33,969 nucleotides of DNA. It comes from a virus. Numbering within the stretch: position 1 is the first letter of the stretch; each line of letters starts with the position of its first letter. Positions 564 to 15,250 of the stretch are shown here, one piece after another. Under the pieces are notes generated by a model that saw nothing but the letters and a program-made list of their open reading frames with translations, was not told the DNA's origin and searched no databases. A program made the translations under genes and the position numbers. The stretch spans positions 1 through 33,969 of the IMG/VR virus record IMGVR_UViG_3300012001_000026. One strand, given 5' to 3'.

Positions 564-818
564 ATGACTGCGAAGAAGAAGGCTGCACCGAAGAAGTCCG
601 GCGACAAGAAGCCGGGCGTTGGCGACGTGGCGATCGAGGCGCTGCGCGCTGGCAAGGACAACGAGGAGGCCCTCGCGCTGGTCCAGAAGAAGTTCCCCGA
701 CGCGAGCGTGAGCATCAGCTCCATCGCATGGTACCGGAACAAGCTGCGCAGCGACGGCGAGAAGGTCCCGACGGCCCGCGAGATCAAGGCCAAGCGGAAG
801 AAGTCCGCCACAAAGTAA
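564..818 (+). CDS. Small basic protein with 'LRWY'-type C-terminal module (family member A)
   Basis: 84 residues, very Lys-rich at both ends. The core (EALALVQKKFPDASVSISS then IAWYRNKLRSDGEKVP) carries the module found in five other proteins of this window: a helix, an F-P-x-A turn, then S-x-x-(L/I)-x-W-Y-x-x-K-(L/M)-R-x-x-G-x-x-V-P. Function unknown. Basic flanks and the small helical core would fit nucleic-acid binding, which is inference. It starts 70 bases after the helicase stop and is followed by a hairpin terminator, so it closes the first transcription unit. No membrane segment or signal is visible. Confidence 0.8.
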   Translation: MTAKKKAAPKKSGDKKPGVGDVAIEALRAGKDNEEALALVQKKFPDASVSISSIAWYRNKLRSDGEKVPTAREIKAKRKKSATK

Positions 819-836
819 GATCTATCCCAATGCAGG

Positions 837-868
837 AGCCCAGCACTAACCATGCTGGGCTTCTCCAT
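837..868 (+). terminator. Hairpin terminator after the helicase unit
   Basis: A 9-bp perfect stem, AGCCCAGCA (837-845) with TGCTGGGCT (853-861), has a 7-base loop and is followed by a T/A-rich stretch (TCTCCATATTT). It sits 19 bases after the stop of the 564-818 gene and just before a promoter candidate. The T-run is imperfect. Confidence 0.6.
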
Positions 869-869
869 A

Positions 870-897
870 TTTACGAGCCCCTATAGCATGTTAGTAT
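870..897 (+). promoter_or_regulatory. Candidate sigma70-like promoter
   Basis: TTTACG (870-875) and TAGTAT (892-897), spaced 16 bases, each match 4 of 6 consensus positions. The site lies between the hairpin at 837-861 and the first gene of the next unit at 930, which is where a promoter is expected. The region is AT-rich relative to its surroundings. Confidence 0.4.
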
Positions 898-899
898 CC

Positions 900-914
900 C
901 CTGTTAGCAACAGG
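900..914 (+). promoter_or_regulatory. Small hairpin overlapping the ribosome binding region of the 930 gene
   Basis: CCTGTT (900-905), loop AGC, AACAGG (909-914) form a perfect 6-bp stem. Its 3' arm overlaps the AGGAGAG ribosome binding site at 912-918. If transcription starts near 904 only part of the stem would be in the RNA, so it could instead be an operator-like inverted repeat. Confidence 0.35.
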
Positions 915-929
915 AGAGAGGTTAGCACA

Positions 930-1136
930 ATGGCTAAGAATATGTTCGACCTGATCGACAAGGGCTATGCCGGGAAGTGGGGCGAGCCGGGGCTCGACGC
1001 CATCGGCCCGACCCAGTCCCAGGCGGAGCGCGACCGACTCCACCAGCGTGAGGAGCTCATCAAAGCCAGGCAGGGCCGCAAGACCCGGAAGTCCTACTAC
1101 GAGCGCCAGCTCGAGAAGTTCGGCTTCACCAAATGA
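930..1136 (+). CDS. Small hypothetical protein (68 aa)
   Basis: Starts at ATG 930 behind a good ribosome binding site (AGGAGAG); the same frame is open further upstream, but that part lies in the intergenic region. The product begins MAKNMFDLIDKGYAGKW and ends in a charged helix (KARQGRKTRKSYYERQLEK). No recognised family. It is the first gene of the large plus-strand operon. Its last codons lie inside a 29-bp tandem duplication, and its TGA overlaps an ATG in an ATGA junction that occurs twice. Soluble and basic. Confidence 0.75.
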   Translation: MAKNMFDLIDKGYAGKWGEPGLDAIGPTQSQAERDRLHQREELIKARQGRKTRKSYYERQLEKFGFTK

Positions 1137-1177
1137 AGATTAAGGAGTTCGGCTTCACCAAATGAAGATTAAGGAGT
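1117..1177 (+). repeat. 29-bp tandem duplication
   Basis: Positions 1117-1148 recur at 1146-1177, an offset of 29. The unit contains the end of the 930 gene, its stop and the ATGA start of the next gene. The first copy's ATG (1133) therefore opens an 11-codon mini-frame (MKIKEFGFTK, stop 1163-1165), whose stop overlaps the ATG (1162) of the full-length next gene. Confidence 0.9.
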
Positions 1178-1359
1178 ACGTCAGACAGCTTTGGGATAAC
1201 GGGTCGACCCTCGAGGTCGCGGTTGTCCTCACGCAGAAGAGGTTCCTGCATTCGTGCGCGAGCAGAACGTATGTCATGAGGATCTACCGAGGACTGATGA
1301 TGGATCGGGCCCGAGAGGATCGCAAGCAGGAGGAAGCAAAATGTCTGTCCAAGGACTAG
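1162..1359 (+). CDS. Small protein, divergent 'LRWY'-family member (B)
   Basis: 65 residues. The pattern WDNGSTLEVAVVLTQKRF followed by SRTYVMRIYRGL parallels member A (KDNEEALALVQKKF...ISSIAWYRNKL), but the W-Y pair has drifted to I-Y and the F-P turn is lost. It is either a diverged paralogue or a chance resemblance. The ATG at 1162 overlaps the mini-frame stop created by the 29-bp duplication, so it may be translationally coupled. It overlaps the next gene by 19 bases. Function unknown. Confidence 0.6.
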   Translation: MKIKEYVRQLWDNGSTLEVAVVLTQKRFLHSCASRTYVMRIYRGLMMDRAREDRKQEEAKCLSKD

Positions 1360-2423
1360 CCTACGTCAGGGCCTACTACTCCGGCGTCGTCAAACTCAGG
1401 CACGACACACCACTCCGATACGAGATTGGGCCGGACCGGTGTCCCAGCTTCGGCGAGGCCGGAGCCCTGATCCTCGATCCCAACGACGCGGGCAAGCTGA
1501 AGAAGACCAGCCGCCTCACGCTGTTCTGTCCCTTCACGCTGACCGCCAACCAGATCACCTCCGAGGCCGGCGAGATTTGCGTCGTAAAGAAGGTGCTCAA
1601 GAAGCGCAAGATAGAGGGCGTCAAGGAGGAGGACGCCATGTCGGACGAGGTCAAGCTCGTCGAGCGCGTCCCCGAGCAGGACCTCGACGACGAGCGGGTC
1701 GAGCGGCTGGCCCGGATCATCACCCACAACTGGAACTCGAGGTGCAACCTCGGGCTGCAGTCGGACCTCGACGTCGCGGCGGTCGTGCTCCAGCGTATGG
1801 GCAAGCCGGTCCCTGAGGCTCGGCTCATCGTCCGCAAGGACGCGACCGGCCAGGCGAAGAAGACGGGACGCGACGCCGCCGTGGCGCTGCTCAAGGCCGT
1901 CAACCCGTCGAGCAAGCCGGGCCGGGTGCTCGCCTTCTTCCTCCCGGGTGGCCGGTCGATCATCGAGGCCATGGCCGAGTTCGGCTCGACCAGGTCCTCG
2001 GTCCAGACCAGCTTCCGCAACCTCCAGGAAGATAATGGCATCGGCTACGAGCAGGCCGCGGATATGGTGACGATAATCCTGCCGCCCGACTGTCAGGACC
2101 CATTCGCCGAGCCCATCGTCAAGGGCGCAACCAAGCAGGAGGCACGCGTGGCAGAGAAGCCCAGAGGCAAACCGATGCAGGACGAGCTGCTCGTCTCGCC
2201 GCTACCCACCAAGGGCAAGCGCCGCGAGGTAGCGCTGGCGTGCATGAACAGGTTCGTCGGGATCGAGGAGATCGCAAAGGCCCTGGACTGCTCCGCCGGC
2301 TCCGTCCGGTCGCACCTGAACGACCTGCACCTCAAGCACGGCCTCGGGTACGAGATCACCGACGGCAAGTGCAGGGTGACCGCCCCGAAGGGCTACGTCG
2401 AGGAGAAGGATCCGCTGGCATGA
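1341..2423 (+). CDS. Tandem winged-helix-like protein (360 aa), possible transcription or replication regulator
   Basis: The start chosen is ATG 1341, 7 bases after an AGGAGG site; the frame is open upstream but that part is a shadow of the preceding gene. Residues 1-99 show no known domain. Residue 100 is an internal Met (1638) behind another strong site (AAGGAGGAGG), so a shorter 261-aa form is possible. Two similar C-terminal units (about 188-248 and 290-350) each have a helix-turn-helix look (IIEAMAEFGSTRSSVQTSF; IEEIAKALDCSAGSVRSHL) followed by a GLGYE/GIGYE beta-wing. A DNA-binding role is inferred. The stop overlaps the next start (ATGA). Confidence 0.75.
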   Translation: MSVQGLAYVRAYYSGVVKLRHDTPLRYEIGPDRCPSFGEAGALILDPNDAGKLKKTSRLTLFCPFTLTANQITSEAGEICVVKKVLKKRKIEGVKEEDAMSDEVKLVERVPEQDLDDERVERLARIITHNWNSRCNLGLQSDLDVAAVVLQRMGKPVPEARLIVRKDATGQAKKTGRDAAVALLKAVNPSSKPGRVLAFFLPGGRSIIEAMAEFGSTRSSVQTSFRNLQEDNGIGYEQAADMVTIILPPDCQDPFAEPIVKGATKQEARVAEKPRGKPMQDELLVSPLPTKGKRREVALACMNRFVGIEEIAKALDCSAGSVRSHLNDLHLKHGLGYEITDGKCRVTAPKGYVEEKDPLA

Positions 2424-2614
2424 ATGCCGATAGAGCCTGCATTGGAGAACTCATCGACCGCCTGACGTCGCTGTCCTGCGTCATCCGAACTGCTGGGGAC
2501 AGTTCGTGGTGCACGACGTGCGGCCATCGGTTCGACACAAATACGGAGGAAAATAACCAGCCTCCGGTATGCCAGCTGAGGCTCGATCCGATACGCGGAG
2601 GACTGCTGACATGA
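2420..2614 (+). CDS. Small Cys-containing protein (64 aa)
   Basis: Starts at the ATGA overlap (2420) with the winged-helix gene and ends at another ATGA overlap (2611). The product MNADRACIGELIDRL... contains SWCTTCGHRFD, a single C-x-x-C-x-H knuckle, and another Cys (VCQLR) that could complete a zinc site. No recognised family. The start is set by the coupling; the frame also extends upstream inside the previous gene. Role unknown. Confidence 0.65.
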   Translation: MNADRACIGELIDRLTSLSCVIRTAGDSSWCTTCGHRFDTNTEENNQPPVCQLRLDPIRGGLLT

Positions 2615-2808
2615 GATGGAAACCCAGGAACAGCGGCATCTGCTTCGCCTGGCTCCCGACCTGGACCCAGGACGAGGGCACCGTGTGGCTGGAGTGGCTG
2701 CACTGGGAGCGCAACGATGGCGGTGCCAACCAGCCGTTCGCCTACTGGGCCTGGGTCTCGGAGGAGGACTACGACGCGGGCAAAAGGGCAGGTCGCCGTG
2801 GCCAGTAA
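2611..2808 (+). CDS. Small Trp-rich hypothetical protein (65 aa)
   Basis: Begins at ATG 2611 overlapping the previous TGA. The sequence is rich in Trp and acidic residues (CFAWLPTWTQDEGTVWLEW, WAWVSEEDYDAG), suggesting a compact beta-rich fold. No family recognised. It overlaps the following GTG-started gene by 11 bases, continuing the tightly coupled operon. Confidence 0.65.
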   Translation: MRWKPRNSGICFAWLPTWTQDEGTVWLEWLHWERNDGGANQPFAYWAWVSEEDYDAGKRAGRRGQ

Positions 2809-3175
2809 AGCCAAGGAGCTGAAGGCCTACGTCGAGCAGGTGCTCGTGGACGAGGGCGTGGCGAGGCCGTACGAGTTCTCCCTGGCCGCGAACTCACACC
2901 AGCAGGTCGTCTTCTATGTCAAGGGCATCCGCGTCAAGTACCAGTTCCCGTTCTCCCCGTCGGACTACAGGTCCATGCTCAACTCGCGCTCGTCCATCCG
3001 GAAGGCCATCCGCACCGCCTCGGGGCACGCTCTTTCAGGAGCACCTGCGCGGCGATCCCTTCTGGATGATGGTTGCGTGCTGCCTCGTAAACCTCACCAC
3101 CTGGGAGCAGGCCGAGCCGGCGTTTCTAAACTTGCGCCGTCGGTTCGTCCACGCTGGCGGTCTTGCGGGGGCTAG
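2798..3175 (+). CDS. Small phage protein with PSDYRSxxNxRSxIRKAIR motif; 3' end uncertain
   Basis: GTG start at 2798 with an AGGGCAGG site. The first ~75 residues (KAKELKAYVEQVLVDEGV; HQQVVFYVKGIRVKYQFP; PSDYRSMLNSRSSIRKAIR) look like a complete small alpha/beta domain: a strand pair and a basic helix, reminiscent of dsRBD/HicA-like folds. From about 3022 the frame runs on to 3175 over the glycosylase in another frame, and this tail (Arg/Pro-rich) looks non-coding. Either the genes overlap or one base too many in GGGG (3021-3024) breaks a fusion to the glycosylase. Confidence 0.55.
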   Translation: MASKAKELKAYVEQVLVDEGVARPYEFSLAANSHQQVVFYVKGIRVKYQFPFSPSDYRSMLNSRSSIRKAIRTASGHALSGAPARRSLLDDGCVLPRKPHHLGAGRAGVSKLAPSVRPRWRSCGG

Positions 3176-3479
3176 ACCCGCTAGGCTCGTCCACGCCCTC
3201 CGGCCGCTCGGCCTATCCAACATCAGGTCAAAACGTTTGGTCGCGATGGCCAAGGCTTGGTGCACGCAAGTCCCCTCCTCTGCCTCGGATGTTCTAAGTC
3301 TACCTGGCTGTGGTTCCTATGCCGCGGACAGTTGGGCGATCTTTATCGAAGGCAGACTCCTTGACCGTGACACTGTCAGTGACCACAAACTCGGATGGTT
3401 CCTCGACGCTGTCGCGAGTGGAAAGAAGGAGACTCCAATGCCTTGCCTGCCACAAGGTTCATCGAGTACAGAGAACTGA
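2916..3479 (+). CDS. MBD4-like HhH-GPD DNA glycosylase (T/U:G mismatch type)
   Basis: The recognisable fold begins at 3027 (TLFQEHLRGDPFWMMVACCL). The first ATG in this frame is 2916, but 2916-3026 reads as shadow, so the true start is unclear. Domain order follows the MBD4 catalytic domain: N-terminal helices with NLTTW, LRPLGLSNIRSKRL, the helix-hairpin-helix LPGCGSYAADSWAIF (from 3300) and the catalytic SDHKLGWFLD, whose Asp (3381) is the GPD aspartate. There are no Cys residues for an EndoIII-type FeS cluster. Enzymes of this family remove T, U or hydroxymethyl-U opposite G. Adjacent nucleotide-modification genes suggest repair of deaminated modified cytosine (inference). The 3' end overlaps the HNH gene. 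Confidence 0.75.
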   Translation: MSRASASSTSSRSPRRTTGPCSTRARPSGRPSAPPRGTLFQEHLRGDPFWMMVACCLVNLTTWEQAEPAFLNLRRRFVHAGGLAGARPARLVHALRPLGLSNIRSKRLVAMAKAWCTQVPSSASDVLSLPGCGSYAADSWAIFIEGRLLDRDTVSDHKLGWFLDAVASGKKETPMPCLPQGSSSTEN

Positions 3480-3861
3480 GGCTGGACGCAAGTGGCGACT
3501 TGAGAACCTCGAACGGGTTCGAGCCTATCGTCGTCGCCATCAGAAGGTATTCCTCTCAGACCTTTCCAATCGACTTGCTCATAACCTGCGAGTTCGTCTG
3601 GGCAAAGTCATACGAGGGCGAAAGACGAGGTCGACGTTAGACCTCTTAGGGTGTTCACTTGAACGTCTTAAAGAGCATCTTGCAGGACAGTTTCAATCGG
3701 GAATGTCCTGGGAGAATTATGGGCAGTGGGAAGTTGACCACATCAAGTCCCTAGCATCCTTTGATCTGACCGATCCCATACAGCTCGCGGAGGCGTGCAA
3801 CTTTTCCAACTTGCAACCTCTCTGGGCCTTGGACAACAACCGGAAGGGAAACATATGTTAG
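3418..3861 (+). CDS. HNH homing-type endonuclease
   Basis: 147 residues if started at GTG 3418. It has an N-terminal C-x-x-C (CLACHK), an Arg/Lys-rich helical region, LDLLGCSLERLKEHLAGQF, then GMSWENYGQWEVDHIKSL with the catalytic D-H (107-108) and NLQPLWALDNNRKGN with the metal-binding Asn residues. This is the common free-standing phage HNH layout. The best ribosome site (AAGGAGA) precedes ATG 3438, which is in the glycosylase frame, not this one, so the start is uncertain. The gene is clearly less GC-rich than its neighbours, as expected for an invading element. Its stop overlaps the next start. Confidence 0.8.
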   Translation: MERRRLQCLACHKVHRVQRTEAGRKWRLENLERVRAYRRRHQKVFLSDLSNRLAHNLRVRLGKVIRGRKTRSTLDLLGCSLERLKEHLAGQFQSGMSWENYGQWEVDHIKSLASFDLTDPIQLAEACNFSNLQPLWALDNNRKGNIC

Positions 3862-4889
3862 AGATGCAGCTAAGCAACGTCCGCGACTTCCACATGCAGG
3901 TGACGGGGCAGCCGATGGCGGACGTCCCGACGATGCTCGTCGCGGACCGACGGGACTACGCGATCAAGTTCCTGGACGAGGAGCTGACCGAGTTCAAGGA
4001 CGCCTGCACGATCGCCGACCAGGCTGACGCACTGATCGACATGATCTACGTCGCCTACGGGCGGCTCCTCGAGATGGGCATCCAGCCCGGCCCGTCCTTC
4101 CAGCTCGTGCACGAGGCCAACCTCAAGAAGGTCCGCGGCCCGACGAAGCGTGGCGGCGTGTACGACGCCGCCAAGCCCGATGGCTGGCAGCCGCCGGACT
4201 GGGAGGACCACCTCAGTCTCGACAAGGGCCAGTACATTGGCCTCACACGTGAGGTCGATCAGTTTGGTGGACCGCGACCGCGGACAAACCCCTGGGACAA
4301 TAGCTGTCAGCCGTTCTTCAAGAGCACGGTCGAGCGCGAGGATTACGAGCGCGAGCACCGCAAGCCTAAGATCCTCCTGCTCGGCTACGGACGGCACGGC
4401 AAGGACACCGTCGCCGAGATCCTCGAGAGCAAGTATGGACTCACCTTCACCTCGAGCAGCATGGTCTGCGCGGAGAAGGTAATGATGCCGGTCTTCAATA
4501 GGCACGACGGTGTCCGCCAGACCGTCATATATGCCGACGTCAAGGAGTGCTTCAACGACCGACACAACCACCGCGTCACGTGGTTCAAGGCCATCGAGGA
4601 GTTCAACACCCCCGATAAGTCGGCGCTCGGTCGGATCATCTTTGAGGCCAACGACATATACGTCGGCCTCCGCAGCGCCCGCGAGTTCCACGCCGTGAGG
4701 AACGCCGGGCTGTACGACGTCTGCATCTGGGTCGACCGCTCGCAGCACGTGCCGCCCGAGGACAGGTCGTCCTGCACCGTCGAGCCGTGGATGGCCGACT
4801 ACGTGATCGACAACAACGGCACGCTCGACGAGCTGGCCTTCAACGTGGACGCCCTCATGTGGGGCCTGGAGAAAAAGCGCAATGCCTAA
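3855..4889 (+). CDS. MazG-like NTP pyrophosphatase fused to deoxynucleoside monophosphate kinase
   Basis: 344 residues, starting at ATG 3855 after GGAAGGGA and overlapping the HNH stop. Residues ~10-110 are an all-alpha NTP pyrophosphohydrolase: FLDEELTEFKDA (E42, E43, E46) and DALIDMIYVAYG (D58, D62) give the E-x-x-E / D-x-x-D metal site. Residues ~170-340 are a P-loop kinase with Walker A GYGRHGKDT (177-185), GLTFTSSS and the C-terminal DYVIDNNGTLDEL seen in phage dNMP kinases. The T4 analogues are gp56 (dCTPase/dUTPase) and gp1. The fusion would remove an unwanted dNTP and phosphorylate the modified dNMP made by the next gene. Substrate specificity is inferred. Confidence 0.8.
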   Translation: MLEMQLSNVRDFHMQVTGQPMADVPTMLVADRRDYAIKFLDEELTEFKDACTIADQADALIDMIYVAYGRLLEMGIQPGPSFQLVHEANLKKVRGPTKRGGVYDAAKPDGWQPPDWEDHLSLDKGQYIGLTREVDQFGGPRPRTNPWDNSCQPFFKSTVEREDYEREHRKPKILLLGYGRHGKDTVAEILESKYGLTFTSSSMVCAEKVMMPVFNRHDGVRQTVIYADVKECFNDRHNHRVTWFKAIEEFNTPDKSALGRIIFEANDIYVGLRSAREFHAVRNAGLYDVCIWVDRSQHVPPEDRSSCTVEPWMADYVIDNNGTLDELAFNVDALMWGLEKKRNA

Positions 4890-5745
4890 CGATCGGACCC
4901 TCTCGCACGTAGCCGGGACCTTCCCCTACATCTACGACGAGCTGCTCGAGGAGCTCGTCAACTCGCCGTTCACGGAGGTCAACCAGCGGACGGGCGCCGA
5001 GATCAAGATGCTCCTGGGCGGCTGCAGCTTCAAGCTGGACCTGACGGACCAGCGTGTGCCGGTCACCGGGTCCCGCAAGCTGTTCCCGCACGTGGCCGCG
5101 GCCGAGGTCGCCTGGTTCCTCCAGGGCAACCAGGACGTGACCTGGCTCAACTATCACGCCAAGATATGGGACAAGTTCAAGGAGCCGGGGACGGAGATCG
5201 TCAAGGCCGCCTACGGGTACCGCTGGAGGTTCCACTTCGACCGCGACCAGATCAAGCTGGCGATCGCGGCGCTCCAGATGAACCCGACCGACCGCCGCGT
5301 GTGGGTGCAGGCCTGGGACCCGAGCGAGGACGGCCTGGGCGCCCCGAACCAGAGGAACGTGCCGTGCCCCATCGGCTTCACCCTCTCGATCGTCGGCGGC
5401 CTGCTGCACAGCTCGCTGTTCATCCGCTCGTCGGACGTCTTCGTGGGCCTGCCGTACGACGTGATGGGCCACGCCATCCTGATGGCCAACGTCGCGGCGT
5501 CGATCGGCCTCATGGGCCTCGGCACCATGCAGGTGACGCTGGCCCACCCGCACCTCTATGCACAGCACTACGACATGGCCGCGCAGTGCCTCGTGAACGT
5601 CCACCACCCGAAGGGCCCCGAGCTCTATGCGTGGCGGGTCGACGACGTACTGGCGGACCCCGACGGCTTCGTCTTCACCTACCGCAAGTCGGCGCAGGCG
5701 GTTGAGTGGTCCGATTATGCGCCCAAGCCGGAGTTGGTACTTTGA
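4882..5745 (+). CDS. Thymidylate synthase-fold enzyme, predicted dCMP hydroxymethylase
   Basis: 287 residues, the length of the ThyA family. Conserved sites (E. coli TS numbers in brackets): R36 (R21), E75 in AEVAWFLQG (E58), Y111 (Y94), catalytic C162 in NVPCPIGF (C146), R182 and D185 in IRSSDVF (R166, D169), H224 and Y226 in HPHLYAQHY (H207, Y209). The base-reading Asn177 is replaced by Asp193 in GLPYDVMGHA; Asp at this position is the hallmark of dCMP hydroxymethylases such as T4 gp42. Hence it probably acts on dCMP with methylene-THF. Ordinary dUMP methylation cannot be excluded. It overlaps the kinase gene by 8 bases. Confidence 0.8.
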   Translation: MPNDRTLSHVAGTFPYIYDELLEELVNSPFTEVNQRTGAEIKMLLGGCSFKLDLTDQRVPVTGSRKLFPHVAAAEVAWFLQGNQDVTWLNYHAKIWDKFKEPGTEIVKAAYGYRWRFHFDRDQIKLAIAALQMNPTDRRVWVQAWDPSEDGLGAPNQRNVPCPIGFTLSIVGGLLHSSLFIRSSDVFVGLPYDVMGHAILMANVAASIGLMGLGTMQVTLAHPHLYAQHYDMAAQCLVNVHHPKGPELYAWRVDDVLADPDGFVFTYRKSAQAVEWSDYAPKPELVL

Positions 5746-6194: not shown

Positions 6195-6435
6195 GGTCCT
6201 CAACAAGCACCGCGACACCATCCCCCCGGGCGCAGTCTACTGCGGCCGGGGTTCTCCGTACGGCAACCCGTTCCCGATCGCCGGGACACTGACGCGCAAG
6301 AAGGCGATAGAGAAGTTCGTGCGCGAGGTCCTCCCCGGCCTCGACGTGTCGGCCCTCCGCGGGAAGGACCTCGTCTGCTTCTGCAAGCCGCGGGCGTGCC
6401 ACTGCGATCACATACTGGAAAAGGCGAACAGATGA
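6187..6435 (+). CDS. DUF4326 family protein
   Basis: The family signature is clear: PRVLNKHRDTIPPGAVYCG, RGSPYGNPFPI, LRGKDLVCFCKPRACHCD. Family members normally begin MPRVxNKH, which here corresponds to CTG 6187 (CTG CCT AGG), overlapping the previous stop and 7-9 bases after AGGA. The nearest in-frame ATG (6130) would add 19 unlikely residues. The C-x-C-x-x-x-x-C-H-C-D cluster suggests metal binding. Function is unknown; the family is common in phages. The stop overlaps the DHFR start (ATGA). Confidence 0.75.
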   Translation: MPRVLNKHRDTIPPGAVYCGRGSPYGNPFPIAGTLTRKKAIEKFVREVLPGLDVSALRGKDLVCFCKPRACHCDHILEKANR

Positions 6436-6932
6436 AGCTCATCATGGCGGTTTCGAAGGAAGGCTACGTGACCAGGTGCCTCGACGACGACATGAGTTGG
6501 ACCGGGCCGAGCGACAAGACGGCGTTCCGCCTGCTGACCTGCGTCGGCGGCCACATCGCGTGCGGGTCCCGGACCTGGGACAGGATGCCGCACCAGCTCC
6601 CCGGCCGCCACCTGGTCAAGCTGAGCACGTCCGCGCCGATCGGCCACGAGACCCCGACGCTCGACTGGTTCGAGAAGCACCACCCCGACGGCTGGCTGAT
6701 CGGGGGCCAGACGATCGCGCTCGAGGCGCTCAAGAAGGACCTGGTGGACCAGGCATTCATCGTGCACTCGTCGCGGCTCTGCTTCCCGACGGCGAGCGGC
6801 GACAGGTATACACTGGGTAGCCAGTACCACCTGCACGAGGACTACCAGCGGCACAACCCGCGGTGGCGGAAGTCGACGACCCTGGCCCTCGGCGACGTCG
6901 AGGTCGCCGTCTGGAACAGGCAGCGGCTGTGA
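6432..6932 (+). CDS. Dihydrofolate reductase-like protein
   Basis: 166 residues with the DHFR order of motifs: MKLIMAVSKEGYV at the N-terminus, MSWTGPSDKTAFRLLT with the catalytic acid (D28, equivalent to E. coli D27), CGSRTWDRMP and LPGR, then GWLIGGQTIALEAL, the GG NADPH loop. It reduces dihydrofolate to tetrahydrofolate, the carrier used by the TS-fold enzyme encoded ~0.7 kb upstream. A TS makes DHF, whereas a hydroxymethylase does not, so the pair does not decide the TS question; T4 carries both types plus a DHFR. It is coupled by ATGA at its start and GTGA at its end. Confidence 0.8.
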   Translation: MKLIMAVSKEGYVTRCLDDDMSWTGPSDKTAFRLLTCVGGHIACGSRTWDRMPHQLPGRHLVKLSTSAPIGHETPTLDWFEKHHPDGWLIGGQTIALEALKKDLVDQAFIVHSSRLCFPTASGDRYTLGSQYHLHEDYQRHNPRWRKSTTLALGDVEVAVWNRQRL

Positions 6933-7381: not shown

Positions 7382-7442
7382 ACGCGAGAATACGAAGGCC
7401 CGTCTCGCAATATACCCTCCGAACAATCATTGAGGGTCGAAC

Positions 7443-7859
7443 ATGGATTTGGAAGCGCTATGCGGGCTGACGATCGTCCAGCTGATAGAGGAGCACAACC
7501 GCCTCGTGGGCGATGATCAGGAGAAGAAGATCAAGACATGGAAGGACGACAAGACCGTCCTGGCGCAGAAGATCGTCGAGCTCCGGGACCTGGACAGGAA
7601 GCGCAGGTCGGCGAGGACCATCAAGTCGGCGGCATACGAGCTGCTCCTCCAGGTGGACTACCCGGACCACAACCAGAGGCCCGTCGGGCACTCCTATGAC
7701 GTCATCCTCGCGCGGCTGCGCGACGAGTTCCCGGACAGCAGCACGACGGACAAGTGCCTCAGGTGGTACGCCGTCCAGCTCAACCTCGACAACGCGCGGA
7801 TGCCGTGGCGCCCTCGCCGCGCGCCCAAGAAGAAGGTGAAGACAGATGTGGAAGCATAG
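7443..7859 (+). CDS. 'LRWY'-family protein C, paralogue of the 10301-10852 gene
   Basis: 138 residues; start ATG 7443 behind GAGGG. The N-terminal part (LTIVQLIEEHNRLVGDD... IKTWKDDKTVLAQKIVEL) matches the N-terminus of the minus-strand protein at 10301-10852 (LKTAELVAIYNGVSGKPAI...). The C-terminal module reads YDVILARLRDEFPDSSTTD then KCLRWYAVQLN. It ends in a Lys/Arg tail. Function unknown. A 61-base gap before it may hold a weak promoter, but none is convincing. It overlaps the next gene by 14 bases. Confidence 0.8.
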   Translation: MDLEALCGLTIVQLIEEHNRLVGDDQEKKIKTWKDDKTVLAQKIVELRDLDRKRRSARTIKSAAYELLLQVDYPDHNQRPVGHSYDVILARLRDEFPDSSTTDKCLRWYAVQLNLDNARMPWRPRRAPKKKVKTDVEA

Positions 7860-8019: not shown

Positions 8020-8141
8020 GGTGCCTGGTCTGCTGGTTCACGGACCACATCTGGAAGAACATGGGCACAGCCCTCTCGCACCCGGGCCATCAGATGGAAC
8101 GCTGCGAGCGCTGCGGGGCGAGAAGGAGCATTCGTCGATGA
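8016..8141 (+). CDS. Zinc-ribbon-like small protein (41 aa)
   Basis: GTG 8016 overlaps the previous stop and the frame ends in an ATGA overlap at 8138. The product has two knuckles, CLVC near the N-terminus and CERC near the C-terminus, separated by 28 residues containing several His, as in a minimal zinc ribbon. Very short, so the call rests on the paired C-x-x-C motifs and the coupling on both sides. Partner unknown. Confidence 0.55.
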   Translation: MRCLVCWFTDHIWKNMGTALSHPGHQMERCERCGARRSIRR

Positions 8142-8440
8142 AGCAGGTCAGGACGAGGATCGCGGGCTTCAACCACCACGACGGCGCGCCGAAGGCGCTC
8201 ATGACCATGCGGCCTCAGACGCGGCTGCTGCTCGTGCCGGAGCCGAAGAACCCGCACGACAGGAACGCCATCAGGATCATCACGACGGCGGGACAGATGC
8301 TCGGCTACGTGCCGACCGTCGACGCCCCCGGCGTGCACGAGCGCCTCAGGGACAAGAACGTGCACGTGAGGTGCTTCAAGACGACGGACACGTTCAACTC
8401 GATCGCAATCCAGTATGAAGAAGGAGATCCCCTAGCATGA
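8138..8440 (+). CDS. Stand-alone HIRAN domain protein
   Basis: 100 residues. Almost the whole protein is a HIRAN domain: RIAGFNHHD, then LLLVPEPKNPHDRNAIRI (the diagnostic E-P-x-N-x-x-D-x-N-A-I), GQMLGYVPTVDAPGVHERL and a C-terminal strand pair. HIRAN domains bind 3' ssDNA ends and are usually fused to SNF2 helicases (HLTF/Rad5). Here the domain is separate, but a SNF2-like helicase fragment lies at the start of the window. It may target DNA ends or forks. Joined by ATGA at both ends. Confidence 0.8.
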   Translation: MKQVRTRIAGFNHHDGAPKALMTMRPQTRLLLVPEPKNPHDRNAIRIITTAGQMLGYVPTVDAPGVHERLRDKNVHVRCFKTTDTFNSIAIQYEEGDPLA

Positions 8441-9015: not shown

Positions 9016-9042
9016 ACGGTTCTACAGAACCAAGGCCTAAAC

Positions 9043-9090
9043 GGCCCCGGAGGATAGGCTCGACCACCTGTCCTCCGGGGCCTCGTTTTT
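9043..9090 (+). terminator. Strong intrinsic terminator at the meeting point of plus and minus operons
   Basis: GGCCCCGGAGGA (9043-9054) pairs with TCCTCCGGGGCC (9071-9082), and the stem can extend inward (TAGG/CCTG with a wobble). It is followed by TCG and TTTTT (9086-9090). It ends the plus operon. The minus operon stops at 9102 and may use the same stem, though its downstream side is only weakly T-rich. A smaller hairpin GGTTCT/AGAACC lies at 9018-9031. Confidence 0.85.
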
Positions 9091-9101
9091 ACCTGGGACT
9101 C

Positions 9102-9344
9102 CTAGCTTAACCCAGCAAACCAGCGTCCACCAGCTTTCCCCAGACGCGCTCCTGCACGGCCTCGAGCGACGGGCCAGACGACGACGCCCTTCGACGCGTC
9201 GTCGGTCGTGTGGTAGGTCCGCCACTCCCAGACGATGCTGTCCGGGCGGTACTTCTCGATGGTGGCGAGGACGATGCCCGACTGGTCCCTCAGGACCCAG
9301 GCCTCGATGGGTCCGGTCAGCTTGCTCCATTCGGTGTTCTTCAT
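9102..9344 (-). CDS. Hypothetical protein (80 aa)
   Basis: ATG at 9344-9342 overlaps the stop of the upstream gene (ATGA). The product MKNTEWSKLTGPIEAWVL... is Trp-rich with short strands (SGIVLATIEKYRPDSIVWEW, TYHTTDDASKGVVVW), a likely small beta fold. A longer frame exists upstream but only as a shadow of the 9341-9829 gene. No family recognised. Last gene of the minus operon before the shared terminator. Confidence 0.7.
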   Translation of the reverse strand: MKNTEWSKLTGPIEAWVLRDQSGIVLATIEKYRPDSIVWEWRTYHTTDDASKGVVVWPVARGRAGARLGKAGGRWFAGLS

Positions 9345-9829
9345 CCGAACATCCCCGGGAACTCCACCGAGAACTCGGTGTGCTCCATCAGCTCCTCGTT
9401 CAGGTCCTCCGCCTTCTGCTCGCGCTCGTCGGCCTCGGCCTGCTTGCCGTCCAGGGCCCCCGCGGCCTTCGTCTCGGCCGCGGCGGTGCGGTAGGCGTCG
9501 ATCGCCTCGACCGCGGCCTGGAGCAGGGTCTGGGCGTTGGAGAACCGCACGTCGCGGGAGGGACCCTTCCGCTTGTCCTTGTTCACCATCTCCACGCACT
9601 CGACGGCGAGGTCCTTGACGTGATCGGGGACCTCGGGCGGCTCGTCGTGCTGCTCGAGCTCGTCCGCCGCCTCGGTGGCCACCTCGCACTTGGGCATGTG
9701 GCCCATGTTGGCGCTCTCCATGTTGTCGGCGGTCTCGCGCATCTCCTCCGCCAGCTCCTCGAACACCGCGAAGGCGTCGTTGATCGCCCCCTCGACGGTC
9801 GTCTTGATCGGCTTAGGCTTGTAGGCCAT
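9341..9829 (-). CDS. Hypothetical helical protein (162 aa)
   Basis: Strongly acidic and helical: AINDAFAVFEELAEEMRETA, EATEAADELEQ-type stretches, and a C-terminal coiled-coil-like segment (KQAEADEREQKAEDLNEELM). No recognised domain. A GDK-type basic loop (VNKDKRKGPSRDVRF) lies mid-protein. It overlaps the upstream gene by 17 bases and the downstream gene by 4, so it is co-translated with them. Function unknown; a dimerising scaffold or binding protein would fit the composition. Confidence 0.75.
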   Translation of the reverse strand: MAYKPKPIKTTVEGAINDAFAVFEELAEEMRETADNMESANMGHMPKCEVATEAADELEQHDEPPEVPDHVKDLAVECVEMVNKDKRKGPSRDVRFSNAQTLLQAAVEAIDAYRTAAAETKAAGALDGKQAEADEREQKAEDLNEELMEHTEFSVEFPGMFG

Positions 9830-10007
9830 CTTGGTCTCCCTTCTCTGGTTTCACGAACGACTTATGGAACGCCGAGCGGGACGACGGCTTGTTGCCATCG
9901 AACCGCACTATCCAGCAGCTCTTGTCGCGGGACTCGCCGATGACGATCCCGTGACGGTTGCCCCGATGGTCAACCCCGACGAGTCGGAACTTGTCGCCCT
10001 TCTTCAT
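9813..10007 (-). CDS. Small SH3/KOW-like basic protein (64 aa)
   Basis: Starts at ATG 10007, overlapping the stop of the membrane protein gene upstream. MKKGDKFRLVGVDHRG... IVIGESRDKSCWIVRFDG reads as a five-strand SH3-like barrel with a basic tail (HKSFVKPEKGDQ). The frame is open upstream, but that part overlaps the neighbouring gene. It may bind nucleic acid or protein; no family call is safe. Confidence 0.65.
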   Translation of the reverse strand: MKKGDKFRLVGVDHRGNRHGIVIGESRDKSCWIVRFDGNKPSSRSAFHKSFVKPEKGDQDGLQA

Positions 10008-10228
10008 AGCCCGAGGCACCGTCGGGCGCGGTTCGTGTGGCGTGGATAGTTCTCCCACAGCCAGTCGTCCTGGTTCCCCATCGGGGAACCGGCCGCCTTA
10101 TAGTTGGCGGCGACGCGGCTGCAGAAGTCCCCGCCGTGACGGGCGTAGCTGAACGTCAAAACCAAAGCCAACGCAGAGACCGCCAGCGCGGTAACGGCGA
10201 GGGTCGGGACGCATGAGGAAAGTCGCAA
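10004..10228 (-). CDS. Small membrane or exported protein (74 aa)
   Basis: TTG start at 10228, 6 bases after a strong AAGGAGA site; no ATG is available. Residues ~9-28 form a hydrophobic helix (TLAVTALAVSALALVLTF) after a short N-terminus, followed by a polar domain with two Cys (DFCSRVAAN and RRCLGL) that could form a disulfide. A signal anchor is most likely; there is no clear lipobox. Coupled to the next gene by ATGA. Role unknown. Confidence 0.65.
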   Translation of the reverse strand: MRLSSCVPTLAVTALAVSALALVLTFSYARHGGDFCSRVAANYKAAGSPMGNQDDWLWENYPRHTNRARRCLGL

Positions 10229-10300
10229 GGGAAGTCTCCTTGGCTGCGCAGCTGTCGATCGGCTGCTGGGATCCGGTCGGGCACTCGTCCTTGGTCGTCC

Positions 10301-10852
10301 TCACGCCGCGACGGCCGTCTTCGGGCGGATCGGCATCACGACGCGCTCCTTGCCGGTCTGCTTGTTCAGCTTCGTCGCGTACCAGCGGAGGCAGTTGAGC
10401 GACGTCTCGGCCTCGGGGAACTTCTCCTGGACCTTGGCGAGGATCTTGCCGTAGGGAAGGCCGAGCGGTCGCTTCGACTTCTCGTCGGTGCCGCGGACCT
10501 CGAGCAGCAGCTTCTCGCACAGCTCGCGGATGGCGCCGCGCTTGACGCCGTCGGCCTTCGCCTTCTTCTTGGCTGCGGCCTTCTTGGCGGGCTTCTCCTT
10601 GGTCGGCGGCTCGGCGTGGTCCACCGGACGTCCGACCTGCTTACCGAGCTCGTCGGCGGGCGCCTCGAAGTCCGTCATCCGCTCGGACGGTCCGGCGGAC
10701 TCGTAGAAGTAGTCCTCCGGGGCGGTCTTGAGGATGGAGGCGATGAGGTCGGCGACCTTCCGCTTCCACTTCGCGATGGCGGGTTTCCCCGACACTCCGT
10801 TATAGATTGCGACCAGTTCAGCAGTCTTGAGTCCGTTGAGTGCTGTCGACAT
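10301..10852 (-). CDS. 'LRWY'-family protein D (183 aa)
   Basis: ATG 10852 follows AAGGAG. The N-terminus LNGLKTAELVAIYNGVSGK parallels protein C on the plus strand (7443-7859). The middle is a Lys/Ala-rich linker (KEKPAKKAAAKKKAKADG). The C-terminus has AIRELCEKLLLEV, YGKILAKVQEKFPEAETS and LNCLRWYATKLNKQTG. The basic linker and repeated module suggest nucleic-acid contact, without proof. A 66-base gap separates it from the upstream gene. Confidence 0.8.
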   Translation of the reverse strand: MSTALNGLKTAELVAIYNGVSGKPAIAKWKRKVADLIASILKTAPEDYFYESAGPSERMTDFEAPADELGKQVGRPVDHAEPPTKEKPAKKAAAKKKAKADGVKRGAIRELCEKLLLEVRGTDEKSKRPLGLPYGKILAKVQEKFPEAETSLNCLRWYATKLNKQTGKERVVMPIRPKTAVAA

Positions 10853-10918
10853 TGGGTAACTCCTTGGTGTGTATCCCTTAATGGTATATCAAGGGGTTGG
10901 TGAAGGGAATGGACTAAC

Positions 10919-11407
10919 TCACTTTGCCGGGCGGTTGGTGGGGACCTTCCGACCCTGCTTCCTCATCTCGGTCTCGTACCAGCGTAGGGACGCGACCGTC
11001 GTCTTCGAGTTCGGGTACCGCATCGCGATGGCCAAGATGACCCAATGGTAGGAGTACGGTCCGACGCCGACGAGGTCGCGGAGGAGGAGCTGTCTGGCGT
11101 AGTTGCCCAACGTTCCCGGCGCTCCGGTAGTCGAGGCGGCGTAGGCCTTCGAGGCGGCGTAGGCCTTCTTCGTCCGGGCGATCTGGTCCGCGAAAAGATC
11201 CCGAGTCTGCGGGCTAGGCGCGGCGACCCGGTTTCCGTCGAAGCCCCAGCCCTTCGGCCACACGGAGGCGACGGCACTCACTGGTATCTCGTACTTCGCC
11301 ATGAGCTTGACCGCCGTCTCGACGGCGGAGGCCTCCTCGCCAACCGTCGCTCCGCGAGCGACGGTCTTGGCGAGGACAGCCTTGATTAGGTTCAGCTTGC
11401 TGCTCAT
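10919..11407 (-). CDS. DUF2786-like domain fused to 'LRWY' module (family member E, 162 aa)
   Basis: Start ATG 11407 in an ATGA overlap. Residues 1-50 (KAVLAKTVARGATVGEEAS, AVKLMAKYEIPVSAV) resemble the N-terminal helix pair of DUF2786 proteins. A linker contains an in-frame KAYAAS duplication. The C-terminal module is YARQLLLRDLVGV, YHWVILAIAMRYPNSKTTV, ASLRWYETEMRKQGRKVP, nearest in sequence to member A. DUF2786 function is unknown. The gene shows that the same module is attached to different N-terminal parts. Confidence 0.8.
   Translation of the reverse strand: MSSKLNLIKAVLAKTVARGATVGEEASAVETAVKLMAKYEIPVSAVASVWPKGWGFDGNRVAAPSPQTRDLFADQIARTKKAYAASKAYAASTTGAPGTLGNYARQLLLRDLVGVGPYSYHWVILAIAMRYPNSKTTVASLRWYETEMRKQGRKVPTNRPAK
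11133..11168. repeat. 18-bp in-frame tandem repeat
   Basis: GAGGCGGCGTAGGCCTTC occurs twice back to back (11133-11150, 11151-11168). On the minus strand it encodes a duplicated KAYAAS hexapeptide in the linker of the DUF2786-like/LRWY protein. Confidence 0.9.
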
Positions 11408-11661
11408 TGGACCACGGTCTCCGTCACGAGATAGCACTCGTCGATGGCACTCAAGGGTCGGCAAAAGGCCCTCGAGAAGTCATCGTTCCAGTCGAGGCCG
11501 GGAAATACCTGACGGTCGCTGCTGTTGGGATCCACCATCGCCTCGAACAGTTCCGAGGCGTGTCCCTCCACCGCCCGAACGGCGGAGGTCTTCGTTCGGA
11601 ACGAGGTGACGAAGGGCGTCACCTCGTTCTCGCAGATGTGGGTGATTGTCCAGACCTTCAT
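11404..11661 (-). CDS. Hypothetical protein (85 aa)
   Basis: ATG 11661 lies ~10 bases after AAGGAGA. MKVWTITHICENEVTPFVTS begins like a small alpha/beta protein; the rest is acidic (FEAMVDPNSSDRQVFPGLDW, NDDFSRAFCRPLSAIDE). No recognised family. It overlaps the downstream gene (ATGA) and lies 4 bases after the upstream gene. Confidence 0.7.
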   Translation of the reverse strand: MKVWTITHICENEVTPFVTSFRTKTSAVRAVEGHASELFEAMVDPNSSDRQVFPGLDWNDDFSRAFCRPLSAIDECYLVTETVVQ

Positions 11662-11665
11662 GGGG

Positions 11666-11887
11666 TCAAATCTCCTTGACTTCGACGCTCACGATGCGGA
11701 CGATCTTTTTCGTGTCGCGGTTGATGAGGTCACGCCCAATGTTGCGGCGATCGAGGATCGCGTGGTTGTTGGCGGTCACGAGGCTCCGCGTCTCGAAGCG
11801 ACGGACCTTGCCGTCGGCGTAGGTCGTCACGACCTCGTGGGTCTTCGGCATCGCTTGGATGTAGGCGATAAGGTCTTCGGTCTTCAT
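11666..11887 (-). CDS. Hypothetical protein (73 aa), first gene of the minus operon
   Basis: Start ATG 11887 with GGAGA upstream. MKTEDLIAYIQAMPKTHEVV then YADGKVRRFETRSLVTANN and KKIVRIVSVEVKEI suggest a helix followed by a small beta sheet. No family recognised. It lies directly behind the left-facing promoter-like block at 11905-11944, giving a predicted leader of only about 20 bases. Confidence 0.7.
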   Translation of the reverse strand: MKTEDLIAYIQAMPKTHEVVTTYADGKVRRFETRSLVTANNHAILDRRNIGRDLINRDTKKIVRIVSVEVKEI

Positions 11888-11904
11888 AACCAGTCTCCGT
11901 CGTT

Positions 11905-11944
11905 TCGATCTTCAAAGGATAGTCCCCCTCCCAGCGTTTGTACA
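11905..11944 (-). promoter_or_regulatory. Left-facing promoter-like block of the divergent control region
   Basis: Read on the minus strand, this 40-bp block matches the right-facing block (12109-12148) at 35 of 40 positions. It offers a -35-like TGTACA, 17 bases, and a -10-like TATCCT, with a conserved GGGGGACTATCCTTT core and a conserved AGATCGA where transcription would begin. It points at the 11887-9102 operon. Confidence 0.6.
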
Positions 11945-11970
11945 TGGGGAACTTCGGAGACGATGGGATA

Positions 11971-11990
11971 TGGCTAACGCCTGGCTAACG
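11971..11990. repeat. Direct repeat TGGCTAACG x2, 11-bp period
   Basis: TGGCTAACG at 11971-11979 and again at 11982-11990 puts both copies on the same face of the helix, as for a repressor or initiator pair. They sit between the two divergent promoter-like blocks. Confidence 0.5.
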
Positions 11991-12108
11991 GGAACCAACA
12001 CTGGGACAGTTCTCCTCCACTCTCTATATACGCCCGTATGGGACCTTTGGACCAACATCCCCTATTAGGCCCATATCAGCCATAAAGGAATGGGGATGAA
12101 CAAGGGGG

Positions 12109-12148
12109 TGTACAAATACTGGGAAGGGGACTATCCTTTATAGATCGA
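12109..12148 (+). promoter_or_regulatory. Right-facing promoter-like block of the divergent control region
   Basis: Mirror copy of 11905-11944: TGTACA (12109-12114), 17-bp spacer containing CTGGGAAGGGGAC, TATCCT (12132-12137) and AGATCGA (12142-12148). It points at the plus operon starting at 12187, leaving a leader of about 40 bases. Between the two blocks (11945-12108) there is no gene; the stretch is AT-richer than the surroundings and also holds GGACCTTTGGACC and the 11-bp-period repeats. Confidence 0.6.
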
Positions 12149-12186
12149 TGGCAGGGCATAATGTCCCTTGGCAATAGGATTTGAAA

Positions 12187-12501
12187 ATGACGATCAAGGT
12201 TCAACTAGGCGCCGCACGCACCATCAAGAAGCATTTCGTCGAGGTCAGAAGCCTCCTCGAGGCCTCGGAGGTTGTCTCCAAATTCATTGGCAATAACGAC
12301 TGCACCGCGGGTTGCGGTTCGGACTGGAACGTCTTCAACGGCGGCGACATATTCATCGACGACGAGAAGGCCGCGCACGTCTCCTACAACGGACGCGTTT
12401 GGGACCTCGATCAGAGGGAAGTCGTTCTCGGTTTCGAGAAGGCGTACCGTAAGGCAGAGGCGATAAACAACCTCAAGTGCCTGCAGGCCGACGGCAGGTG
12501 A
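12187..12501 (+). CDS. Hypothetical protein (104 aa), first gene of the small plus operon
   Basis: ATG 12187 follows ATAGGA; an in-frame TTG at 12181 would add two residues. MTIKVQLGAARTIKKHFVEV starts as an alpha/beta fold; the centre has CTAGCGSDWNVFNGGDIFID with two Cys, then VSYNGRVWDLDQREVVLGF. No family recognised. It is transcribed away from the minus operon out of the shared control region. Confidence 0.7.
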   Translation: MTIKVQLGAARTIKKHFVEVRSLLEASEVVSKFIGNNDCTAGCGSDWNVFNGGDIFIDDEKAAHVSYNGRVWDLDQREVVLGFEKAYRKAEAINNLKCLQADGR

Positions 12502-12504
12502 GTG

Positions 12505-12660
12505 ATGAAGTTCGTTCTTCAGTCTTTCAATGGGCACACTTGGTGCACCATCTCGAAGCCCCGCGACGAGGAGAAGCAACGCGAGCGATACGCTGCCCTC
12601 CTCAGGGCAGTCCCAGAGGCCAAGGACCGTCTCCGCATCGCGTTGGTGGAGGGTCAGTGA
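12505..12660 (+). CDS. Very small protein (51 aa)
   Basis: ATG 12505 behind AGGTGAG, reading MKFVLQSFNGHTWCTISKP and a charged helix (KQRERYAALLRAVPEAKDR) to TGA 12658-12660. Three bases separate it from the upstream stop, and one base separates its stop from the next ATG. Short, but position and ribosome site support it. Function unknown. Confidence 0.55.
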   Translation: MKFVLQSFNGHTWCTISKPRDEEKQRERYAALLRAVPEAKDRLRIALVEGQ

Positions 12661-12661
12661 C

Positions 12662-12811
12662 ATGGAGCGCCTAACGATCACTATGCCGCCGGAGGTAAGG
12701 CGCGAGATGGAGCGCCTCCGGGTTGCACTCGAGAAGGAGACTGGGCTGACAATCTCGTTGTCCAGCATCATCGTCGCGGCATGCCGCAAGTATGTAGGGA
12801 GTGGAAAATGA
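12662..12811 (+). CDS. Ribbon-helix-helix (CopG/Arc-type) DNA-binding protein (49 aa)
   Basis: MERLTITMPPEVRREMERLR is the classical RHH beginning: a short strand with alternating residues, MPPE, then helix A. ETGLTISLSSIIVAACRKY is helix B with the S-x-S-x-I-V/I turn. RHH proteins dimerise and bind operators through the strand pair, so this is a likely repressor of phage promoters. Candidate targets are the inverted and direct repeats of the divergent control region, which is inference. It overlaps the next gene by ATGA. Confidence 0.8.
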   Translation: MERLTITMPPEVRREMERLRVALEKETGLTISLSSIIVAACRKYVGSGK

Positions 12812-13179
12812 CTACTGGTCAGAAGATCTATGGTAACCGCGGGGCCTTCCGTGGCTACCTGTGCGTGGACTTTGCCGGCGATATCGAGGAGGCGATGGAG
12901 TTCGCCGCGGCGAACGACCTCCGCTCGCGCCACTACGCTCGAGAGCCGGCGAAGTACAATCCCCACAATGGCTGCGTCATCCTCAACGTCGGGTGGACGA
13001 GCGTCGCCAACAAGAGGGAGCTGATGAGGAAGCTGGACTCCCTCGGCTGGGACAAGGGCTCCGTCATGGACGTCAAGACCCTCACCCAGGTCTACGGCCG
13101 CGGCGAGTGGTCCCTGCGATGGGGGAAGGGCTGGCAGCACCGCGGCAAGCAGCTGACGCAGGATCCTCCCAATGACTGA
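12808..13179 (+). CDS. Hypothetical protein (123 aa)
   Basis: ATG 12808 overlaps the RHH gene stop. The product has GNRGAFRGYLCVDFAGDIEE, AMEFAAANDLRSRHYARE, a mid-region CVILNVGWTSVANKRELMRK and an aromatic, basic tail (WSLRWGKGWQHRGKQ). Alternating hydrophobic strands and helices suggest a soluble alpha/beta protein. No family recognised. Last clear gene of this operon; the frameshifted membrane-protein remnant at 13172 begins inside its 3' end. Confidence 0.7.
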   Translation: MTTGQKIYGNRGAFRGYLCVDFAGDIEEAMEFAAANDLRSRHYAREPAKYNPHNGCVILNVGWTSVANKRELMRKLDSLGWDKGSVMDVKTLTQVYGRGEWSLRWGKGWQHRGKQLTQDPPND

Positions 13180-13271
13180 CCGGACCCGGGACTGGACGAT
13201 CGTCGCCTCCGCGGCGATCACGGCCCTGTGGATCCGGCCTCGTCGCGCTCGCCGTCGCCCTCCTGAGATGA
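13172..13271 (+). pseudogene. Possible small membrane protein with a frame break
   Basis: ATG 13172 opens MTDRTRDWTIVASAAITALW, and from about 13232 a neighbouring frame continues GLVALAVALLR to TGA 13269-13271. Joined by dropping one base near 13230, the two give a ~32-residue protein with one membrane span, a sensible small holin-like or inhibitor protein. As sequenced, the first frame instead runs through the terminator. It may be a sequence error or a decayed gene. Confidence 0.3.
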
Positions 13272-13278
13272 TGAAGAA

Positions 13279-13302
13279 GGCCGCCGGATCGCTCCGGCGG
13301 CC
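13279..13302. terminator. Bidirectional terminator between convergent units
   Basis: A 10-bp perfect stem, GGCCGCCGGA (13279-13288) with TCCGGCGGCC (13293-13302), has a 4-base loop. The minus-strand RNA loop is GCGA, a GNRA tetraloop, followed by TTCTTC; the plus-strand side is followed by TCGCTCTCTTTC. It separates the 12187-13179 operon from the 13584-13348 gene. Confidence 0.65.
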
Positions 13303-13347
13303 TCGCTCTCTTTCTCCCAAAACCTTTTTGTTTGGCTGCTGCGCGGT

Positions 13348-13584
13348 TTAGGAGAACGCAGCCTCTCGAGTGACAGGGCGCTCACGCACCGTTCTACCCT
13401 CGCCGCGCATCTTCGAGGCATAGTGACGGACGGAGGCAGGACTCGTCTGGGACGAGAAGGTGCGGCGAGCATCCCGGGCGATCTCCGCGTACGGCCTCTT
13501 CGTCCGGGCCAGGAGGGCCTCGACGAACACGTGGATAGTCTTGGCGCCGTTCCCGATGGGGCGGTTCTTCTTGTGGTTGGACAT
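13348..13584 (-). CDS. 'LRWY'-family protein F (78 aa), single-gene unit
   Basis: ATG 13584 follows AAGGAG; an upstream in-frame ATG (13626) lies in the leader. The N-terminus is basic (SNHKKNRPIGNGAKTI). The module reads IHVFVEALLARTKRPYAEIA, RRTFSSQTSP, ASVRHYASKMRGEGRTVRER, with W-Y replaced by H-Y. The gene is alone between its own promoter/operator candidate and a terminator, so this copy is separately controlled. Function unknown. Confidence 0.75.
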   Translation of the reverse strand: MSNHKKNRPIGNGAKTIHVFVEALLARTKRPYAEIARDARRTFSSQTSPASVRHYASKMRGEGRTVRERPVTREAAFS

Positions 13585-15248: not shown

Positions 15249-15250
15249 TG

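Follow-up and report, generated by a model that had tools for sequence, protein, structure and literature searches.

Several small proteins encoded by the 33,969-base virus record IMGVR_UViG_3300012001_000026 look alike, and the question that this locus raises is whether they share one module and, if they do, what that module is for. The whole stretch, hereafter the window, is a fragment; related phages are mostly near 60 kb. A first-pass annotation had named six such proteins, which we call A to F in the order of their genes (B being the one at 1162-1359). We find that five of them, A, C, D, E and F, are homologous by way of one short module, as shown by sequence comparison. We consider it somewhat probable (roughly 0.6) that this module is a lineage-specific helix-turn-helix (HTH) family which serves as a reusable DNA-anchoring part, with a fold that is predicted and with DNA binding and roles that we infer. 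The five proteins are:

564..818, plus strand: protein A, 84 amino acids (aa); Lys/Ala/Pro-rich N-terminus, then the module (core ~660-758)
7443..7859, plus strand: protein C, 138 aa; SAP/Rho-N-like helix pair (~7458-7583), module core (~7695-7784), basic RPRRAPKKK tail
10301..10852, minus strand: protein D, 183 aa; SAP/Rho-N-like domain (~10715-10840), a linker rich in Lys/Ala and modelled with low confidence, then the module (core ~10361-10453)
10919..11407, minus strand: protein E, 162 aa; weakly DUF2786-like N-terminus (~11285-11386), module core (~10952-11050)
13348..13584, minus strand: protein F, 78 aa; the module nearly alone (core ~13396-13491)

Because circularity had to be avoided, the module profile (33 positions) was made from 240 domain hits outside the window, and it was searched against all 526 six-frame open reading frames (ORFs) of the window of at least 30 aa. 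It picks exactly A, C, D, E and F (independent E-value, i-E, 3.9e-15 for A, 4.8e-15 for D, 1.6e-14 for C, 2.6e-10 for E and 4.2e-10 for F), and the next-best ORF has an i-E of 2.9. None of 100 residue-shuffled sets of the window ORFs gave an i-E below 1e-3 (lowest 0.0094), and among reversed ORFs of a larger sequence set the best value was 0.48. Pairwise phmmer comparison of the six sequences joins the same five proteins directly (C-D 6e-15, A-E 1.7e-8, E-F 1.9e-6), with weak values for F-C and F-D (0.17-0.35 and 0.004-0.0055). Protein B gave no profile match among the window ORFs with all filters off, reached only about 4-5 bits against A in its best phmmer comparison, and has no counterpart in the nearest relative (the IMG/VR contig of our loci L001, L058 and L108), though the genes flanking it are conserved there; these three comparisons rule it out as a sixth copy. 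The claim of six module proteins, for which a profile search had been named as a check, thus stands for five (i-E 4e-10 to 4e-15) and fails for B, which gave no hit. As annotated, the copies lie on both strands, A and C on the plus and D, E and F on the minus strand, in separate gene clusters. Their 33-residue core has the consensus [YN]-E-x-[IV]-L-x-x-V-K-x-x-F-P-x-A-x-T-S-x-x-S-[IVL]-x-W-Y-R-x-K-L-R-x-x-G.

AlphaFold2 models of A and D suggest what this core forms. The model of A, made from a 77-row alignment, has helices at residues 19-28, 33-43 and 51-63 with pLDDT of about 90 or above and a fourth helix after these; that of D has helices at 10-21, 33-43, 102-117, 134-144 and 152-164. D repeats the spacing of the second and third helices of A in its last two (134-144 and 152-164), and a hairpin separates helix one of the module from helix two; a separate two-helix unit stands at the N-terminus of D (pLDDT above 90). 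The model of A has a core of three helices in which a short turn leads into the third, D has matching helices, and the module is accordingly predicted to be a trihelical, probably winged, HTH domain of this lineage, in which 'T-S-x-x-S-[IL]-x-W-Y-R-x-K-L-R' is the predicted third, or recognition, helix. HTH proteins (Nur/Fur/PerR, the G20C small terminase, Mos1 transposase, PadR, MYB and TrpR) make up most of the structural neighbours of A, and TnsB, the C-terminus of MCM and the winged helices of Fur/Zur align with the C-terminal part of D; none of these matches is significant. None of the five window proteins matches a Pfam HTH family, and a sequence search of the PDB found no solved homologue; an RNase A match in that search (E 0.018) was judged to be due to chance.

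The surface of the third helix was assessed from residue statistics on 154 unique cores, with exposed and buried residues read from helix periodicity, not from coordinates. Positions 54, 57 and 61 are hydrophobic in 99-100% of the cores. Aspartate or glutamate is found in 0% at positions 52, 53, 55, 56, 59 and 62 and in 1% at position 58, and lysine or arginine in 84% at position 62, 59% at position 60 and 53% at position 58; the second helix is acidic (aspartate or glutamate in 63% at position 34 and 54% at position 35). An acid-poor, basic face of this kind has, as indirect evidence, the look of a DNA-recognition helix. All five window proteins are basic (pI 9.1-11.6). The helix also carries a conserved aromatic pair, W56-Y57 (W in 75%, Y in 88%). 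Position 56 is W in most classes of the module, S in the MuF and AAA types and H in F, and these class-specific residues suggest that the paralogues may differ in target or affinity.

The first-pass annotation had spoken of amplification in one phage, and the age of the copies can be judged from the nearest relative, which holds syntenic orthologues of A, C, D and F at roughly 60-80% identity and none of E. The orthologue of A (in L001) is about 80% identical (dN 0.14, dS 0.50), that of C (also in L001) 73% (dN 0.23, dS 0.79), that of D (in L058) 60%, and that of F (in L108) 78% over 64 aa or 66% over 77 (dN 0.33, dS 0.74). Substitution rates show constraint on A, C and F. A tree of the window's and relatives' modules (77 rows) sorts by class, with 8 changes for 7 labels against a shuffled mean of 36.8. 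It places window A inside a supported 32-row A clade, and C and D inside a supported 7-row D-type clade, each next to its own orthologue from the nearest relative; because it has only 87 columns and long branches, its deep forks are unresolved and E is without a supported place. Together, the tree classes and the nearest-relative orthologues show, at the level of sequence, that the copies are old paralogues and not a recent burst. Recent amplification in the window phage is therefore ruled out, and the repeated copies belong to a phage lineage.

Searching 108 sequences iteratively returned 241 domain hits, of which 173 are distinct by protein and position. The module was matched in all 50 records searched, with at least two copies in 45 of them and a range of 1-6 (one copy in 5 records, two in 11, three in 16, four in 10, five in 4 and six in 4; W02 and G030 each count one terminal-repeat copy twice), although these counts are not unbiased rates, as all 50 records were chosen for holding the module and many are fragments. 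By tblastn, the A type occurs at places in 65 named-phage records, from phages of Achromobacter, Pseudomonas, Xanthomonas, Stenotrophomonas, Roseobacter, Variovorax, Janthinobacterium, Rhodobacter and Ruegeria, and the D type in 63. These comparisons show a spread through a siphovirus lineage that includes Bradleyvirinae/Pamexvirus-type, Roseobacter RDJL, Steinhofvirus and RcSimone-Hastad phages. Among plasmids the A-type query had no match, and single-protein scans using D and E found no viral contig; no full-length relative of E was seen among 39 matching phage records, none of which spans 80% of it.

Three genes that neighbour the module genes in the window are:

125..493, plus strand: C-terminal part of a helicase gene (phrog_62 'DNA helicase', E 6.1e-21), directly followed by the gene for A
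8021..8440, plus strand: HIRAN-domain gene (PF08797, 45.4 bits, cut-off 24.7), downstream of C
13770-15326, minus strand: gene of the 'DNA transfer protein' family, 518 aa (phrog_1745, E 3.1e-163), with F downstream of it

The A type consists of Lys/Ala-rich arms and the module, and the Lys-rich N-terminus that had been annotated for protein A is as described. An SNF2-type helicase ORF lies within about 1 kb on the same strand in 43 of 51 A-type contigs, a count that leaves out the isolate copies L004-L008 and L107 and the window itself. In one locus, L041, helicase and module are fused in a single 626-aa ORF, in which SNF2-rel_dom (29.6 bits) and Helicase_C (33.8 bits) both exceed their Pfam cut-offs. 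The D type, to which C and D belong, has an N-terminal 'YN..GK..W' domain, then the module, then an RPR-rich tail. Its N-terminal domain was found in 79 of 36,595 ORFs, and all 79 also carry the module; the 'NxxxGK'-type N-terminus noted earlier is thus a real second domain shared by C and D. Residues 2-49 of D align with the Rho N-terminus (Z 3.1, 2.9 Å, 44 residues), and the 33 D-type proteins had no SAP or Rho_N match among the Pfam matches listed (25 of 29 families). HIRAN neighbours of D-type genes lend weak support to a DNA-repair or replication setting. The DUF2786 resemblance that had been noted for the N-terminus of E is weak: it scores 20.3 bits against PF10979, under the curated Pfam cut-off of 23.9, and E matches phrog_421 with E 9.3e-5.

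Relatives carry the module in larger proteins as well. An AAA-like protein (phrog_1250) has it at the N-terminus, and tblastn relatives of that N-terminus occur in five records only, all of Roseobacter phages; membership of the CobS-type porphyrin-biosynthesis family was considered for this protein and set aside as weak (phrog_249, E 0.0076). Further module classes match phrog_17767 and phrog_35736. In the minor head protein of DLP4, Mallos and AXL1 (about 1190 aa), two modules lie between the MuF and ADP-ribosyltransferase regions, at residues 410-440 and 661-692 of the AXL1 ORF. The DLP4 ORF (L008:46556-49999), which is cut at the end of the locus, scores 57.1 bits for Phage_Mu_F (cut-off 29.6) and 21.4 bits for ADPrib_exo_Tox, below the cut-off of 23.4. 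The AXL1 protein, gp16, was detected by 48 peptides in CsCl-purified virions, and its domains were named as MuF and VIP2 (PMC9206674). One virion protein of the relatives therefore joins MuF with an effector domain, as expected of a MuF polyvalent protein. No large ORF of the window, itself a fragment, gave a module hit.

Among bacterial genomes, the contig scan gave one locus, and the same genome was the one found among 151 in the phylum search. A contig of an Armatimonadota metagenome-assembled genome (L109:3343-5028, minus strand) encodes a 562-aa protein that combines the module with an ADP-ribosyltransferase (PF03496, 77.8 bits, cut-off 23.4), so that the two are linked in another setting, distinct from the first. 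In named phages, nothing matched the module part of this ADP-ribosyltransferase protein. By eye, the protein adjoins genes resembling terminase and portal; both of the genome's contigs look phage-like, with terminase and portal labels likewise given by eye, and L109 is probably a phage contig binned into this genome. A second phage lineage (L026, L046, L051, L056, L040 and L107) has proteins of about 280-310 aa with the module near the C-terminus, an uncharacterised N-terminal domain, a SAP-like segment in most and a Lys/Ala-rich linker. RcSimone-Hastad gp58 scores 19.5 bits for GemA (PF06252), under the cut-off of 27, and the resemblance was set aside.

As for the remaining neighbours, the 'DNA transfer protein' gene also adjoins the F orthologue in the nearest relative (75% identity). 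We take it to be T5 A1-like, and the family assignment replaces an earlier identification of the gene upstream of F as a terminase. Other plus-strand ORFs of the window are a HhH-GPD DNA glycosylase-like ORF (2916-3476; 25.8 bits, just below the Pfam cut-off of 26.2), a fusion resembling MazG and a dNMP kinase (3795-4889), an HNH endonuclease-like ORF between these two, assigned by eye and without a Pfam match (3310-3861), thymidylate synthase (4882-5745) and an ORF judged DHFR-like by eye and from synteny (6429-6932).

How might the module work as an anchor? The third helix and the basic tails would together fix the protein to double-stranded phage DNA, which would make the module a reusable anchor. 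Protein A would act for the adjoining SNF2-type helicase as a cofactor, and C and D would bind DNA at two points, by the SAP/Rho-N-like domain and by the module. In relatives, the module would tether the virion-packaged MuF/ADP-ribosyltransferase protein and the AAA-like ATPase to DNA. The earlier suggestion of a small, reused recognition domain, probably nucleic-acid binding, gains indirect support from the predicted HTH core, the acid-poor third-helix face, the pI of 9.1-11.6 and the association with helicase, AAA-like and HIRAN proteins. In the records searched, which span phages of Pseudomonas, Stenotrophomonas, Xanthomonas, Achromobacter, Roseobacter and Rhodobacter, this makes DNA binding a testable prediction for about three genes of each phage. 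The unexplained middle of the virion-packaged MuF/ADP-ribosyltransferase protein also gains a likely part, which would suggest a DNA-bound effector. Should one anchor serve at injection, at replication and at other stages, it would show how a phage puts a single recognition domain to repeated use over its life cycle.

These proposals need to be interpreted cautiously, as several results weigh against them. The structure models cover A and D, two of the five proteins. In the structural search with A, three of 309 chains reached Z of at least 5 and none reached 8 (maximum 5.5); the best Foldseek E for A was only 0.37, and no single structural match was significant. Protein D is weakly constrained relative to its nearest orthologue (dN 0.36, dS 0.46). 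Eight of the 51 A-type contigs are without a nearby helicase, one being cut there and the others mostly from the second phage lineage. By the cut used in our script, only 17 of the 50 distinct D-type ORFs have a HIRAN gene after them; three further pairs overlap by 450-580 bases, as stop-to-stop frames.

Trihelical bundles also mediate protein-protein contacts, which counts against an anchor on DNA as well. A protein-docking three-helix bundle that recruits different phage proteins to a common partner, such as a helicase or capsid component, would fit the functional unlikeness of the carriers (helicase, AAA-like, MuF/ADP-ribosyltransferase minor head and small basic proteins) and the conservation of W56-Y57. 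We nevertheless regard docking as unlikely, given that the third-helix face is basic and nearly acid-free on proteins that are basic overall, that the module is paired with a SAP/Rho-N-like domain, and that the best structural neighbours are mostly DNA-binding HTH proteins. The HTH-like predicted fold would equally suit proteins that regulate the transcription of phage operons sequence-specifically, with a separate operator for every paralogue, as would the separate conserved classes with their differing residues at the W56 position and the scatter of copies over separate gene clusters on the two strands; operon regulators are not usually fused to helicase, AAA-like or virion proteins, however, and we consider this role distinctly improbable.

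RNA binding or service as a counter-defence decoy, the latter also raised at first, could be read into the presence of the module inside a virion-packaged, probably injected MuF/ADP-ribosyltransferase protein of relatives (PMC9206674). We think either very improbable, as sequence and context give no pointer to RNA or to a defence target and the main contexts are those of DNA metabolism. That the likeness is convergent or compositional, arising from a short helix in Lys-rich proteins, might be argued from a core of just 33 residues and from the low-complexity arms of several proteins, yet it is contradicted by the non-window profile with its shuffled and reversed controls, by the syntenic orthologues and by the class structure of the tree, and we give it almost no credence. 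To return to the reusable DNA anchor, a bolder extension of it would make the module a 'genome address tag' that reads the lineage's own DNA, perhaps its modified bases, and brings unlike machines (injected MuF/ADP-ribosyltransferase, SNF2 helicase, AAA-like ATPase and SAP-module proteins) to the DNA of the phage at all stages between injection and packaging. This is a long shot; if true, it would mean a shared targeting code inside one phage, in which the W56 position gives each paralogue its own readout.

Known systems resemble the module in part. Fur/Nur/PerR and PadR regulators carry metal or effector domains, for which the module proteins are too short, and neither these regulators nor the G20C small terminase (TerS) has a detected sequence relation to the module. 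The likeness of A to Nur has Z 5.5 over 67 residues at 4.8 Å, which is below 8, and that to the N-terminal HTH of phage G20C TerS has Z 5.1 over 50 residues at 2.5 Å. The helix-extended-helix of SAP/Rho-N is approached by the N-terminus of D, which aligns with Rho (Z 3.1) without a listed Pfam match. Linker histone H1 is a globular winged helix with Lys/Ala-rich tails. The likeness to it is one of layout only, since in A and its relatives a trihelical domain is flanked by Lys/Ala/Pro-rich arms; the Foldseek list for A includes H1.0 (E 3.6, TM 0.45) without significance.

The minor head protein of AXL1 (gp16), DLP4 and Mallos shares the module, in two copies, with the window proteins, whereas the section on virion proteins in the AXL1 account names no repeated module (PMC9206674). 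No description of the module was found in the open-licence PMC papers searched. A survey of polyvalent proteins reports, in the part consulted, Rho-N/SAP and other HTH domains in such proteins generally, so the theme is already known (PMC5512222). In PHROGs, the window copies find matches (A with phrog_17205, E 5.9e-30; C and D with phrog_16873, E 1.3e-18 and 2e-19), and the families cross-match one another through the module. That database splits the module over at least nine families, of which 17205, 38698, 34102, 16873, 37268, 21513, 35736 and 17767 are of unknown function and 21789 is, for the matching segments, a virion structural protein; it keeps these families separate and leaves their common module and its repeated use unstated. 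While HTH domains themselves are of a known kind, what we consider new is that the module forms a single family, that it is used repeatedly and that it occurs in a packaged MuF/ADP-ribosyltransferase protein: one small domain unites at least nine families of phage proteins, eight of which have no assigned function.

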